Positions 9,276 to 16,166 of a DNA stretch of 64,000 bases are shown here, in pieces (position 1 is the stretch's first letter; every line of letters begins with the position of its first letter). The notes below the pieces were generated by a model. It ran no database searches and had not been told where the DNA came from. It was given only the letters and a program-made list of their open reading frames with translations. Source of the DNA: Stagnihabitans tardus (lineage in GTDB: Bacteria; Pseudomonadota; Alphaproteobacteria; Rhodobacterales; Rhodobacteraceae); assembly GCF_009925085.1 (NCBI RefSeq), contig NZ_JAABNR010000009.1, positions 1 through 64,000 of the forward strand, read 5' to 3'. Made by a program: the position numbers and the translations under genes.

Positions 9276-10925
9276 ATGACCAGGATTTTGCAGATCAACC
9301 TCTTTGGGGCTTGCAGCGTGCAGGGCAAGGGTCCGGGCGGCGCCTTCGAGATCAAGCCTGCCAAGCATCGCGCGCTCTTTGCCCTTCTCGCCACGGCCAA
9401 TGGCGGCAGGCGGACGCGGGTCTGGCTGTTGAACATGCTCTGGGGCGCCTCGGCCCATGACGGCGGGCGCCAGTCGCTGCGCACCGCGCTTTCAAAGCTC
9501 AGGACCGAGATGGCGGGGACCTTCGACCAGGTGCTGCGCGTCGACAATACCGAGATCACGCTTGACCTGTCGAAGGTCGAATTCACCGGGGCGCCGGGGG
9601 CGGGCGAGTTCCTTGAGGGCATCGACATCAAGGACGACGACTTCAATCACTGGCTGCAAGGCATCCGCCAATCGCCCGACCAGTATTTCGCGCTCTTGCG
9701 CGGCCAGGCGGCGCCCGCGCCCGCCGCCCGTTCCATCCTGCCCGCCATCGCGATCCTGCCCTTTCGCCTGGTGGCCGGAGAGGCGATCCACACCGTCCTC
9801 GGCGACTGGCTGGCCGAAGAGATCTGCCGGGCGCTTTCCCGCAGCCCGCTCCTGAGCGTCATCTCGCATCTTTCCTCGCGCGAGATCAGTGGCCAGCGGC
9901 CCGACACCCAGCGCCTGCGCCGGGCGCTTGGGGTCGATTACGCGGTGACGGGCAGCCTGCGGGTCCTGGGGGATCGCATCGTGCTGGATGCCGATTGCAT
10001 CGACGTGGCCTCGGGGCGGATCCTCTGGACCCGGCAGACGCAAGGCAAGATGGCCGATTTCCTGACGCCCGACGCCGAAGCCGTGGCCGAGATCGTGCGG
10101 TCGGTCGGGCGGACGGTGGCGACCGAGGCGGTCGCCCAGGCGCGCGGGCGCAGCCTGAAGGCCCTGGCCGATCACCATCCGCTGATTGCCGGGATCGGGA
10201 TGATGCACGAGCTGCGGCTCTCCTCCTTCTCGAAATCGCGCGAGCTGATCGAAGAGGCGATCCGCCGCGCCCCCGATGTGCCCGAGGCCCATGCCTGGCT
10301 GGCCGAATGGTATGTCATGTCGATCTTCAACGGCTGGTCGGATGACACCCTGCGCGATGCGGGCCGCGCCATGTCTTGCACCGAGCAGGCCTTGAACATC
10401 GACCCCGACAATACCTTTGCCCTGACCATCGACGGGGTGGTGATGAACAACCTCTTCCAGCGGCTCGACACCGCCGGGGCGCGCTTTCATGCCGCGCTGG
10501 ACCTGAACCCCAACGAAAGCATCGCCTGGCTTCTGTCGGGCGTCCTTGCCGCCTATCGCGACGATGGGGCCGAGGCGGTCGAGCGCACCGAACAGGCGCT
10601 CCGGCTCTCTCCGGTCGATCCCTTCGGCTATTTCTACGACAGCATGGCCTCTACCGCCTACCTGGCCGCCGAGGACTGGGGCAAGGCGCTGAGTTTCGCC
10701 GACCGCTCCTTGCAGCGCAACGACCGTCACTCTTCGTCCTTGCGGGTGAAGATCTGCGCGCTGAACCAACTGGGGCGGGGCGAAGAGGCCCGTTCCGCGG
10801 CGGCCGAGATGAAGCGCCGCCAGCCTGGATTTTCCGTGGCGCAATACCGCCGCACCCATCCCGCTGCCGATGCCAAGATCGGTCAACGGGTGATTTCTTC
10901 GCTTTTGGACGCTGGTTTGACCTGA
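9276..10925 (+). CDS. Winged-helix/TolB-like/TPR transcriptional regulator
   Basis: 549 aa. The N terminus (LQINLFGACSVQG..KHRALFALLATANGGRRTR.LLNMLWG) is a SARP/OmpR-type winged-helix DNA-binding domain, about residues 1-100. Residues about 150-275 (AIAILPFRLV...LGDWLAEEICRALSRS...ALGVDYAVTGSLR) resemble the TolB/FlgO-like domain found in adenylate-cyclase-like regulators, though no cyclase domain is present. From about 285 to 530 there are TPR-like helical repeats, for example SCTEQALNIDPDNTFAL and ERTEQALRLSPVDPFG. No membrane segment. It ends 10 bp before the Met-His-Gly haloperoxidase gene, which has its own GGAGG, so it is probably co-transcribed with and may control that gene. Confidence 0.8.
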   Translation: MTRILQINLFGACSVQGKGPGGAFEIKPAKHRALFALLATANGGRRTRVWLLNMLWGASAHDGGRQSLRTALSKLRTEMAGTFDQVLRVDNTEITLDLSKVEFTGAPGAGEFLEGIDIKDDDFNHWLQGIRQSPDQYFALLRGQAAPAPAARSILPAIAILPFRLVAGEAIHTVLGDWLAEEICRALSRSPLLSVISHLSSREISGQRPDTQRLRRALGVDYAVTGSLRVLGDRIVLDADCIDVASGRILWTRQTQGKMADFLTPDAEAVAEIVRSVGRTVATEAVAQARGRSLKALADHHPLIAGIGMMHELRLSSFSKSRELIEEAIRRAPDVPEAHAWLAEWYVMSIFNGWSDDTLRDAGRAMSCTEQALNIDPDNTFALTIDGVVMNNLFQRLDTAGARFHAALDLNPNESIAWLLSGVLAAYRDDGAEAVERTEQALRLSPVDPFGYFYDSMASTAYLAAEDWGKALSFADRSLQRNDRHSSSLRVKICALNQLGRGEEARSAAAEMKRRQPGFSVAQYRRTHPAADAKIGQRVISSLLDAGLT

Positions 10926-10935
10926 GGAGGATTGA

Positions 10936-12054
10936 ATGACGACATTGGGAACGATGCACGGAATGCATGGCATGCACGGGATGCACGGCATGCATGGAAT
11001 GCACGGTATGCATGGTATGCATGGTATGCATGGGATGCATGGCATGCATGGGATGCACGGAATGCACGGCATGCACGGGATGGGGGCGGCGGGCCCCGGG
11101 GCCGAGGCGGGCCAGCAGTCGGCCGCCGAGGCGATCCTGCATGCGGCGGGGCTTGACCCTCTGCCTGCCGCCGGGATCACGCAGCTGACCCCGAACTCTG
11201 CCGCCAACATGCGGCGCTGGGCGCCCGAGGTGCGGGCCCTCTTGATCCAGCAGGCCGTCGCGCGGCAGCTGGGCCATGCGGTGGACCCCGCTGGCACCCA
11301 TGTCAGCCTGACCTGGAGCGGCAATGCGCTGGTGACGCTTTACCGTCCGACCGATGCGACGCTCGCGCCGCAATGCGACATCGTGCGGTTCTATGCCGAT
11401 CAGCGCGGCGACCGCTCGGCCGAAGTCTTCAGCCAGATGGACGCTTTCGCGGCCTATTTCGGCCATCTCCTGGGCCTGACCTCGGCGCGCAATCCCAGGA
11501 CGCTGGAGCTCTTGGCCCTGGTCCCCACGATCGCAGGGCCTGCGACCATGGTGCCCAAACACGTCTTCGCCGTCCGCCGGCCGGCCGAGATCGATGTCCG
11601 TGTCGCCGCCCTGATCGGCACGCCGGGGCATGGTGCCTTCCCCTCGGGCCATGCGACCCAGGCCATGGCCCTGGCCGTGGTCTGCGAGGCCCTGATCCGC
11701 GCCAACCCGGGCCATTTCCCCGATGCCGATATCCGCGTCGACCTCTGCTACCGCGCGGCGCAGCGCATCGCGGTCAACCGCACCGTGGCGGGGGTGCATT
11801 ACCCGATGGATTCCGCCGCCGGGGCCCGCATGGGCCTTCAGATCGGCCGGGCCCTCGTGGCCATGGGCACGACGGGGGGCACGCTGGCCGACCTCGGGCC
11901 CTTTGACCCGAACCTGGCGCCCGGCAAGGACTATCTCTACGAAGAGACCCATGCGCTCTGGACCGCCACGCCCGCAGGCACGCCCATCGGGGTGGAGCCC
12001 GACCCGCTTCTGGGCTGGCTCTGGTCCCAGGCCGCCGCCGAATTCGGCTTGTGA
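10936..12054 (+). CDS. Vanadium-haloperoxidase/PAP2-fold protein with an N-terminal (Met-His-Gly)14 repeat
   Basis: 372 aa. After MTTLGT come 14 uninterrupted Met-His-Gly triplets (residues 7-48), a Gly/Ala linker, then a vanadium-dependent haloperoxidase/PAP2 phosphatase fold. The anion-site motifs are complete: K208-x6-R215-P216 (KHVFAVRRP), PSGH at 236-239 with His239, and R282-x5-H288 (NRTVAGVHYP). This predicts vanadate or phosphate binding, hence halide peroxidation or phosphate ester hydrolysis. There is no signal peptide and no membrane helix, unlike typical lipid phosphatases. Met/His triplets suggest copper or other soft-metal binding, but that is inference. GGAGG precedes the start; the next gene starts 7 bp after the stop. 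Confidence 0.87.
   Translation: MTTLGTMHGMHGMHGMHGMHGMHGMHGMHGMHGMHGMHGMHGMHGMHGMGAAGPGAEAGQQSAAEAILHAAGLDPLPAAGITQLTPNSAANMRRWAPEVRALLIQQAVARQLGHAVDPAGTHVSLTWSGNALVTLYRPTDATLAPQCDIVRFYADQRGDRSAEVFSQMDAFAAYFGHLLGLTSARNPRTLELLALVPTIAGPATMVPKHVFAVRRPAEIDVRVAALIGTPGHGAFPSGHATQAMALAVVCEALIRANPGHFPDADIRVDLCYRAAQRIAVNRTVAGVHYPMDSAAGARMGLQIGRALVAMGTTGGTLADLGPFDPNLAPGKDYLYEETHALWTATPAGTPIGVEPDPLLGWLWSQAAAEFGL
10954..11079 (+). repeat. Fourteen tandem 9-bp units encoding Met-His-Gly
   Basis: Consensus ATGCAYGGN repeated 14 times in frame. His codons switch between CAC and CAT and the Gly third base takes A, C, G and T, yet the encoded triplet never changes, which suggests selection on the peptide rather than a fresh DNA expansion. 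Because the unit is 9 bp, copy-number change by slippage would keep the frame. Confidence 0.97.
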
Positions 12055-12061
12055 GGCGCAG

Positions 12062-13945
12062 ATGCCCTATCCCCTTGGACCCCATGAGCGCTGGCTCTTC
12101 GGGCCCGGCAAGCATTACGACCTGCCGGGCCTCTGGCTGGACACCCAGCCCAGCCTCTCTTGCCTGGCCGAGTTCCCGAACCCGGTCGGCAATCCCCTGA
12201 CCGCCGTGGCCAATCTGTTGAACCACGACGGCATCACCATGCAGCCGCGCTTCCCGACGCTGTGGAGCGCGGGAGGCTTTCGGCCGCATTTCCTGCCCCT
12301 GCTTCTGACGCCCCAGGGCCAGACCGCGCTGGAAGAGCACAACCCCTCCCGGCTGGCCGAGCTGCTTGGCCGCCTGCCGCGTGAAGGCGCCCGGCATCTG
12401 CGGCTGAACTTCCCGGTCCGGTCCGAGACGCTGAATGCGAAGCCCCAGCCTCCGACGGCGGCGACACCAAGCCAGCCCCCCGGCGCGCCGCTGAGCGTGC
12501 TGGCGGTGATCGACCACGGCATCGCCTTTGCCGACCGTCGCCTGCGGGCGGGTGGCCAGACCCGGATGGATTATTGCTGGTCGCAATCGGCCCTGTCCCG
12601 CGAGGGTGAAACCGTGCTCTTCGGGCGCGAGTTCACCAGGGAGCAGATCGACGCCGGCGATGCAGAGGCGCTCTACCGCGAGGCGGGGCTCCTGGGCGGC
12701 GCCAACCGTCCGCCGATGCCCCTGGCGCGCCGCGTGGCGCATGGGACCCATGTGCTGGGCACGGCGGCACAGGGGCCCGGCAATGTCCGGCTGATCGGCG
12801 TCGACCTGCCTGCCACGGCGTTGTGGGACACTTCGGGCTTCGGCACCGACATGTTCCTTCTGGCGGCGGTGCATTACGTCTTCGACCGCGCCGACCGGAT
12901 CGCGGCGGCGCATGGGCTGACCCATGTGCCCGTCGTCTTGAACATCTCGCTGGGGTGGTCGGGCGGGCCGCATGACGGGACCTCTCCGATCGAGGCCGCG
13001 CTGGCCGAGATCATCGAAGCCCGCCGGACCCTGGCGCCGACGCTGCTGGTCCTGCCCTCGGGCAACATGTTCACCGACCAGCTTGCCGCGCGGATCGAGG
13101 ACCGGCACTTCGTCGATGGCCAGGCGGCGTTGCGCTGGTTTGCCCCGCCCTGCGACATGACCTCGTCTTTCGCCGAGGTCTGGCTGCCGGGCGGACCGCA
13201 AGGATACGAGGTCAGCCTGACCGCTCCGGATGGGACGGTGACGACCCTGGCCGCGCCGGGGTGGCAGGATGTGACCGTGGCGGGGCGGACCGTGGGGCTG
13301 GCCATGCTGGACTGCCCGCGCGGCACAAGGTGGCGGGCCAGCTTCTGCCTTGCCCCCACCGAGGCCAAGGCCCTGCCGCCGATGCCCCATGGCCCGGCGC
13401 CCGCCGGGGAATGGCGGATCGCCGTGCGCAGGCCCGCGACGGCGACAGGGGTGGTGCAAATCCGCATCCAGCGCGACGAGGACCAGCCCCAGGGCCGCAC
13501 CGGCGCGCGGCAGTCGCGGCTGTTGGACCCCTGTTACGAACCCTATGACGCCACCGGAGCACCGGGACAGAAGGACAACGGCTCGATGCTTTGCCGGATG
13601 GACGGGCTGAACGGGCTGGCGACGCAGGCCGTGTCGCTGAACGTCGGGGGCAGCATCGACAGCCTGGCACGGCCTTCGCGCTATTCCTCGGCGGGGGTGG
13701 GCCGCGGGGTCGATGTCTCGGCCACGGCGGATCGGGGCGTGGCGCGGCCCGGGGTCCTGTCCTGGACGGCGCAGGGCGCGGGGGTGGTGGCGCAGTCGGG
13801 GACCTCTTCCGCCGCGCCCAAGGTGGCGGCGGCCCTGGCCCTCGCGCTTCTGACCGAGGTTCCTGCGGGCAATGGCGCCGATCTTCTGACCGGCGCCCCG
13901 GTGCCGCCGGACCTGGTCGACCGCCTGGGCCAGCTTCGGCTTTGA
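12062..13945 (+). CDS. Subtilisin-like (S8) serine protease lacking a signal peptide
   Basis: 627 aa from the ATG at 12062, 7 bp after the haloperoxidase stop; the longer upstream frame is a shadow of that gene. Catalytic triad: Asp151 (VLAVIDHGIAFAD), His227 (VAHGTHVLGTAAQG) and Ser582 (SGTSSAAPKVAAA), with oxyanion Asn335 (LPSGN). Roughly 200 residues (about 340-560) are inserted between Asn335 and Ser582 and may form a beta-rich extra domain. Residues 1-140 are an uncharacterised N-terminal region with a Pro/Thr linker. Absence of a signal peptide suggests cytoplasmic action or non-classical export. The pairing with the haloperoxidase gene suggests processing of that protein, but this is unproven. 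Confidence 0.86.
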   Translation: MPYPLGPHERWLFGPGKHYDLPGLWLDTQPSLSCLAEFPNPVGNPLTAVANLLNHDGITMQPRFPTLWSAGGFRPHFLPLLLTPQGQTALEEHNPSRLAELLGRLPREGARHLRLNFPVRSETLNAKPQPPTAATPSQPPGAPLSVLAVIDHGIAFADRRLRAGGQTRMDYCWSQSALSREGETVLFGREFTREQIDAGDAEALYREAGLLGGANRPPMPLARRVAHGTHVLGTAAQGPGNVRLIGVDLPATALWDTSGFGTDMFLLAAVHYVFDRADRIAAAHGLTHVPVVLNISLGWSGGPHDGTSPIEAALAEIIEARRTLAPTLLVLPSGNMFTDQLAARIEDRHFVDGQAALRWFAPPCDMTSSFAEVWLPGGPQGYEVSLTAPDGTVTTLAAPGWQDVTVAGRTVGLAMLDCPRGTRWRASFCLAPTEAKALPPMPHGPAPAGEWRIAVRRPATATGVVQIRIQRDEDQPQGRTGARQSRLLDPCYEPYDATGAPGQKDNGSMLCRMDGLNGLATQAVSLNVGGSIDSLARPSRYSSAGVGRGVDVSATADRGVARPGVLSWTAQGAGVVAQSGTSSAAPKVAAALALALLTEVPAGNGADLLTGAPVPPDLVDRLGQLRL

Positions 13946-15796: not shown

Positions 15797-15971
15797 GCGG
15801 GCGCGCCGGGTCTTGACCTCGCCGGACCATCACTGGGGCGGCGTGACGCCAAGGCATGCGAGGCTTCTTCCCTTGCGATGACCGCGACGCGGGGAGCCAT
15901 GTGCGCCGCCCTGTGAGCTTTCCCTTCTCTCGCGATGAACGCGACGCGGGGAGCCATATGCGCCGCCCTGC
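15797..15971. repeat. Copy A of a 175-bp duplication containing 57-bp iterated units
   Basis: Starts GCGGGCGCGCCGGGTCTT and includes GCCGGACCATCAC and GGCGGCGTGACGCCA, then repeats of a unit containing GCGACGCGGGGAGCCAT. The marker GGGAGCCAT occurs at 15892, 15949 and 16007, that is, periods of 57 and 58 bp. It is copied 370 bp further on as copy B. Confidence 0.88.
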
Positions 15972-16166
15972 GAGCTTTCCCTTTTCTCGCGATGACCCGC
16001 GACGCAGGGAGCCATGCGCGCTGCCCTCCGGGGCCTGAAGTGACCGCGTCAGCCCAGCTCTCGCTTTGCTGCGAAAGTCCCCGCCTTCCGCCCCTGTCCG
16101 GAAGCGACAGCAGGGACCGCTCTTGGGCCGATGGCTCACGCGACGCGGGCCCGGGGGGTGGTTCCA

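Follow-up and report, generated by a model that had tools for sequence, protein, structure and literature searches.

Peptide signalling systems of the RRNPP (RRNPPA) family rely on a TPR protein that senses peptides released by proteolysis from the product of a short dedicated propeptide gene. In Bacillota, tandemly duplicated pheromones are described to undergo proteolysis (PMC11343458). Designed repeat proteins bind four to six tandem tripeptides one-to-one (PMC10115654). Here, we describe a locus in a 64,000-nucleotide stretch of DNA from Stagnihabitans tardus (the window) that belongs to a conserved module, composed of a TPR signal protein, a PAP2-fold enzyme carrying an array of short peptide units that is predicted to be disordered and, usually, an endopeptidase.

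In CC-licensed PubMed Central papers we found no description of this array or of its cassette and, as far as we found, about ninety near-perfect, differing short-peptide arrays on related phosphatase-like proteins are a pattern that has not been described previously. The MHG unit that an earlier reading made from the sequence only had singled out is one of 92 motifs.

Results

The array protein and its fold

Table 1. Features of the cassette in the window.
Feature	Position	Strand	Basis
TPR signal protein, 549 aa, cassette gene 1	9276..10925	+	Pfam TPR_16, 35.0 bits vs cut-off 32.7
PAP2-fold enzyme that carries the array, 372 aa, cassette gene 2	10936..12054	+	ORF translation, Pfam, alignment, structure model
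(MHG)14 array, residues 7-48	10954..11079	+	Translation; predicted disordered, pLDDT under 50
PAP2/acid-phosphatase-like part: K208, R215, PSGH 236-239, R282, H288	11083..12051	+	Pfam, alignment, structure
S8 subtilase, 627 aa, VIDHG/HGTH/GTSSAAP motifs, cassette gene 3	12062..13945	+	PF00082, 31.5 bits vs cut-off 21.8

Translation confirms the fourteen MHG units that the sequence-only reading had placed near the start of the second gene (Table 1). They are encoded by ATG (14), CAC and CAT (7 each), and GGC (4), GGG (4), GGA (3) and GGT (3), giving eight distinct DNA units among the 14, and within the window's genome a three-unit MHG DNA pattern occurs solely at this array (12 overlapping matches). 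In the predicted structure residues 1-50 have pLDDT values under 50. The profiles of the His-Xaa-Ser repeat protein HxsA4 (NF038313; 31.2 vs 55) and the collagen repeat (PF01391; 24.0 vs 27.2) resemble the array as low-complexity matches, but both scores lie below the curated cut-offs. Elsewhere in the window, positions 15867-16027 hold a tandem repeat of period 57 (2.8 copies, 88% matches), in a region where a number of ORFs overlap on the two strands.

The remainder of the protein exceeds the cut-off of the PAP2 profile PF01569 (34.4 vs 27.2 bits). The vanadate/phosphate motif set recognized earlier holds up across the family with one exception: K208, R215, P216, P236, H239, R282 and H288 do not vary among the 69 members aligned, S237 is conserved in 90% of them or more, whereas G238 of the PSGH motif, although present in the window protein, lies outside the columns kept in 90%. 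Comparison of the predicted core with solved structures points to the class A acid phosphatase fold as the closest one. The best structural matches are class A non-specific acid phosphatases (PhoN/PhoC; 1eoi, 2akc, 7f17), members of the PAP2 superfamily (PF01569), with an alignment beginning at about model residue 98, which leaves out the array as well as the residues that follow it. Vanadium-dependent haloperoxidases (1qi9, 4cit, 3w36) score lower, and the window protein is set apart from them by its array and cassette.

Arrays in relatives of the protein

Among 295 genomes sampled evenly from the window's taxonomic family, 103 contain matches to the array protein (E<=0.001), the weak ones including divergent PAP2 proteins. 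Flanks were taken for 80 places, i.e. the one in the window plus 79 taken from the list's upper part, with a few near the lower end skipped. Close to the N-terminus, 79 of the 81 family ORFs at these places carry a perfect array of units of 2-5 residues in tandem. With same-genus, class-level and named GTDB loci added (for GTDB, the best 80), a short tandem array is present in all 161 distinct close-family proteins examined. It is perfect in 158 and imperfect in one (an NTRSG-like tract in L074), and in two genes it lies in a different frame from the core (GAQ in L085, GGF in L213). Homologues with the same neighbours but no repeat, which the sequence-only reading had named as a potential sign of neutral slippage, are absent from this set. 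The TPR gene next to the L085 array is in two pieces; L085 and L213 may be decaying genes or assembly errors. In 87 of the 158 perfect cases the array begins four residues after the nearest upstream ATG.

When divergent members are included, 166 distinct arrays represent 92 motifs up to rotation, e.g. MHG, GGF, NAE, WEG, HAG and GQ, none of the 92 containing cysteine. Most arrays have a period of 3 (138), followed by 4 (23), 2 (4) and 5 (1), and the copy number ranges from 3 to 21 with a median of 9. The arrays exceed chance, because of 1785 ORFs at 156 related loci 120 contain a perfect array of at least five copies, and 116 of these fall in the array-protein cluster, the others being two ORFs antisense to its arrays, one cassette S8 protein and one other ORF. 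At L227 (6918-9344) the cassette S8 protein bears its own TPA repeat (7.7 copies). Phage records gave no match.

The unit itself turns over between lineages. It is MHG, LHG or IHG across seven orthologous loci of the window's genus, GGF in eight and GGL in three of 11 loci from Marivita and near relatives, and GGI in one further Marivita. At a core identity of 90-100%, the motifs are identical in 76% of 45 pairs and no more than one residue apart in 98%; at 30-35%, the exact motif is common to 0.7% of 4164 pairs. Between strains, a comparison the sequence-only reading had proposed, the motif is stable: 15 of 21 Phaeobacter plasmid records were examined and contain NSF six times (13 records) or seven times (2 records), all differences within the array other than copy number being synonymous. 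GGH is common to three Rhizobium records, which differ from each other at synonymous sites.

Selection on the repeat

Comparing the units within one array yields pS = 0.756 and pN = 0.036 (pN/pS 0.047), with 64 mismatches in 4917 array residues, where pN is a lower bound, as the detection of arrays is biased towards perfect runs and their extension tolerated a single mismatch in each unit. Free of this bias is a shuffle test of adjacent codons: neighbouring units share a synonymous codon with a frequency of 0.279 as compared to 0.364+-0.0067 in within-array shuffles, i.e. below all 1000 shuffles, and of 0.311 vs 0.400 if one array per motif is used (92 arrays). Moreover, codon homozygosity in the arrays is 0.374 vs 0.423 expected from the usage of the same gene, codons thus being used more evenly than elsewhere in the gene. 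Low adjacent codon sharing is contrary to what simple slippage predicts, and slippage thus fails as the whole story. These observations fit a uniform peptide that is selected, while identical adjacent DNA units are lost or selected against, and they bear out the earlier argument from codon variation. In L225 and L231 the DNA units are near-identical and the arrays look freshly expanded; thus, new motifs probably arise by local duplication, slippage or recombination and then diversify silently.

The TPR protein and the S8 protease of the cassette

Clustering of ORFs at 156 loci finds the TPR protein at 138, the S8 protease at 136 and the array protein at 123, some members of the latter being masked by longer ORFs on the opposite strand. 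The family that ranks next reaches 15 loci, and no fourth gene, e.g. an exporter, is widely shared. A profile search of six-frame ORFs within 4 kb of 154 arrays identifies the TPR protein at 151, the S8 gene at 148 and both at 145; at least four of the nine loci missing a partner (L100, L124, L170, L196) are contig ends. The catalytic residues of the protease are kept in the aligned relatives (Asp 110/110, His 110/110, Ser 107/110).

The TPR protein consists of a weakly SARP-like N-terminal region, a middle region and C-terminal TPRs. In the window's protein Trans_reg_C scores 13.3 against a cut-off of 26.2, and among 42 TPR partners scanned at E<=0.01 Trans_reg_C is found in 10 and Guanylate_cyc in three. 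A TPR partner from Hydrogenophaga has a cyclase-like domain just under the cut-off (20.4 vs 21.9). A loose string search returned a cyclase-like GDG motif in 15 of 145 TPR partners, including L218, L220, L221, L225, L228, L231 and L234, and for L225 Pfam support for a cyclase is just under the cut-off.

The cassette is carried on plasmids of Phaeobacter inhibens, where its genes are annotated as winged helix-turn-helix protein, phosphatase PAP2 family protein and S8 family serine peptidase. For each of the three window proteins, PADLOC defence-system profiles return no family at E<=0.1. Nineteen genomes were noted with two cassettes, and in all of them the two motifs differ. As distant pairs seldom have a motif in common in any case, this speaks weakly for insulation. 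L051 has two nearby cassettes with different arrays (GS and SAY) on one contig (6085-7341 and 12197-13468).

Divergent relatives and their peptidases

Twenty divergent loci were chosen among the weaker matches. In 18 of them an array lies within the first 160 residues (TGN, AGN, DAR, LDA, SNA, SR, NRG, HGGT and others), L274 has an NR array deeper in the protein, and L270 is without an array and its TPR gene is distant. The other 19 of the 20 have an adjacent or overlapping TPR gene; at E<=1e-8 the main S8 profile finds no match at any of them. A Pfam scan of ten downstream neighbours, eight from the divergent set as well as L108 and L110 from the main set, revealed Peptidase_A4 in four and another S8 type in two; Peptidase_C1 is above the cut-off at L108 and slightly below it at L110, a C39-like match at L272 is weak and below the cut-off, and the neighbour at L262 has no Pfam match. 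Hence, six of the eight divergent loci scanned (of 20) have a peptidase neighbour by Pfam. The second S8 type falls within a BLAST cluster of six loci, which, judged by their sequences, look like L269 and L273-L277. L269, L273 and L277 have an internal array, a dipeptide SR repeat, after about 80-90 residues.

Across close and divergent loci, it is thus the TPR protein that stays constant as a partner, whereas a peptidase is frequently there but belongs to several unrelated kinds.

Motif change and the TPR C-terminus

We scanned 75 windows in the three proteins over 23 disjoint close pairs (core identity >=0.7; 14 with the same motif, 9 with different ones). It is the TPR protein that shows the largest motif-linked drop, in its C-terminal ~45 residues (-0.224 vs -0.032; p = 0.008 by max-statistic), a drop already spotted by eye before the scan. 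It recurs at a core identity of 0.8 (p = 0.008), is negative in all nine differing pairs and persists with any one of four clades left out. At the looser threshold of 0.6 it is not significant (p = 0.19), and neither is the top window there, the S8 C-terminus (p = 0.12). Some N-terminal and middle TPR windows move the opposite way (z to -3.4). The nonsynonymous difference is 0.246 in the TPR C-terminal region vs 0.111 in the rest, the synonymous one 0.683 vs 0.578.

Operonic pairs alone give p = 0.0002 at a core identity of 0.7 and 0.031 at 0.5, whereas divergently oriented loci show no such effect (p = 0.56; 5 same-motif and 6 different-motif pairs, which are more distant). In all nine differing pairs the TPR gene is directly upstream with its 3' end beside the array, and the coupling is confounded, because recombination could carry both. 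Thus, the alignments suggest, at most, that motif change is coupled to the TPR C-terminus. Two genera searched for further close species, one with a match in four of seven genomes and the other represented by a single genome, stayed outside this test.

Residuals at matched PAP2 identity differ slightly for the TPR protein (0.019 in same-motif, -0.006 in different-motif pairs). For the S8 protease they are 0.003 and -0.001, lending no support to the idea that the protease reads the motif. Matrix correlations of motif similarity with the three proteins single out no partner, and for distant pairs all are near zero (0.035-0.089).

Discussion

The repeat is kept by every close relative examined, its unit is variable and its synonymous codons alternate, so that selection on repetition and selection on sequence can be told apart, a rare opportunity. 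We tentatively favour, as plausible if still short of probable, a model in which the array is a polyvalent tail that the TPR partner recognizes and the peptidase cleaves. The disordered array of identical 2-5-residue units would then act as polyvalent linear ligand and as substrate inside the module, the TPR solenoid docking along the repeated units and the peptidase cutting the tail, thereby ending or triggering the TPR contact. Docking and cutting could couple the enzyme to the output of the TPR protein, the front part of which may be DNA-binding or cyclase-like. The unit could have nearly any sequence, provided that the partner reads it and the copies agree, and exchangeable units might create insulated versions in different lineages and paralogues. 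The presence of the array in all close-family proteins examined, the constraint on its uniformity, the low codon sharing of adjacent units, the cassette context, the peptidases of other kinds at some loci, the predicted disorder and the motif-linked drop at the TPR C-terminus speak for this model. Against it, that drop is confounded by adjacency and absent in divergently oriented loci, the occurrence of periods 2, 3, 4 and 5 is a misfit with one rigid TPR geometry, S8 identity does not fall on motif change, and among the divergent loci a peptidase neighbour is established for six of the eight scanned. With clearly less confidence, we speculate that the modules might constitute a natural evolvable recognition code, in which a TPR solenoid reads tandem tri- or tetrapeptide arrays on a partner enzyme, each lineage has its own orthogonal unit, selection keeps the units uniform, codon alternation guards against slippage and a replaceable peptidase serves as reset.

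The strongest rival of the polyvalent-tail model is self-assembly of the tail, a doubtful but serious contender. Here, the identical units would be regularly spaced stickers that gather the enzyme in homotypic clusters or condensates irrespective of the sequence, with only uniformity and length being important. This agrees with the modelled disorder and tolerates periods 2-5, and units such as GAGS, GGV, GGY and GGF resemble silk, elastin or glycine-rich repeats. However, GGA, GS and SGT have no obvious sticker, and neither the near-constant TPR protein nor the frequent peptidase neighbours would be explained.

Alternatively, the tail could be a proteolytic fuse that inhibits or times the enzyme and is trimmed unit by unit by the neighbouring peptidase. 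The S8 gene near 148 of 154 arrays with its conserved Asp/His/Ser, other peptidases at some divergent loci and the near-N-terminal position of the array are in line with this, but a fuse alone does not require identical units and S8 identity remains steady on motif change, which makes this explanation unlikely.

We also regard as improbable, to a similar degree, an RRNPP-like signalling system in which the peptidase frees array peptides, the TPR protein senses them and the PAP2 domain is a carrier or peptide-modifying enzyme. A TPR protein, a source of tandem peptides and a protease, the kind of which can change, do adjoin each other, and proteolysis of tandemly duplicated pheromones has a precedent in Bacillota (PMC11343458). 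Nevertheless, instead of being encoded by a short dedicated propeptide gene, the array is fused to an enzyme of ~320 residues with invariant catalytic columns, its motif is constant in the 15 Phaeobacter records, and the loci share no exporter-like fourth gene.

A metal tail supplying copper or another soft metal to a vanadium-type active site, as the sequence-only reading had suggested from the Met-His content of MHG, is very improbable and was rejected, since the units of many relatives lack both Met and His while the catalytic columns are the same; the haloperoxidase part of that suggestion is not supported either. Equally hard to believe is an array that is a by-product of replication slippage: copy number changes by whole units and some arrays (L225, L231) look young, but the low pN/pS, the dissimilarity of adjacent units, the even codons and the near-confinement of arrays to the array-protein family at related loci rule it out as the whole story.

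The cassette is directly testable, as Phaeobacter inhibens, a marine bacterium that can be cultivated, carries it on plasmids. With RRNPP/RRNPPA systems (PMC11343458) the cassette has in common a TPR signal protein, a tandem-peptide source and proteolysis; it differs in occurring in Proteobacteria, in the fusion of the array to an enzyme, in the peptidase gene being part of the cassette and in the cyclase-like front part of some TPR partners. The designed tripeptide-repeat binders (PMC10115654) show that a repeat protein can read tandem tripeptides, although they are designed and not natural. If the TPR partner reads the array, the cassette would be their natural counterpart and would offer ready-made candidates for orthogonal pairs of peptide and receptor.
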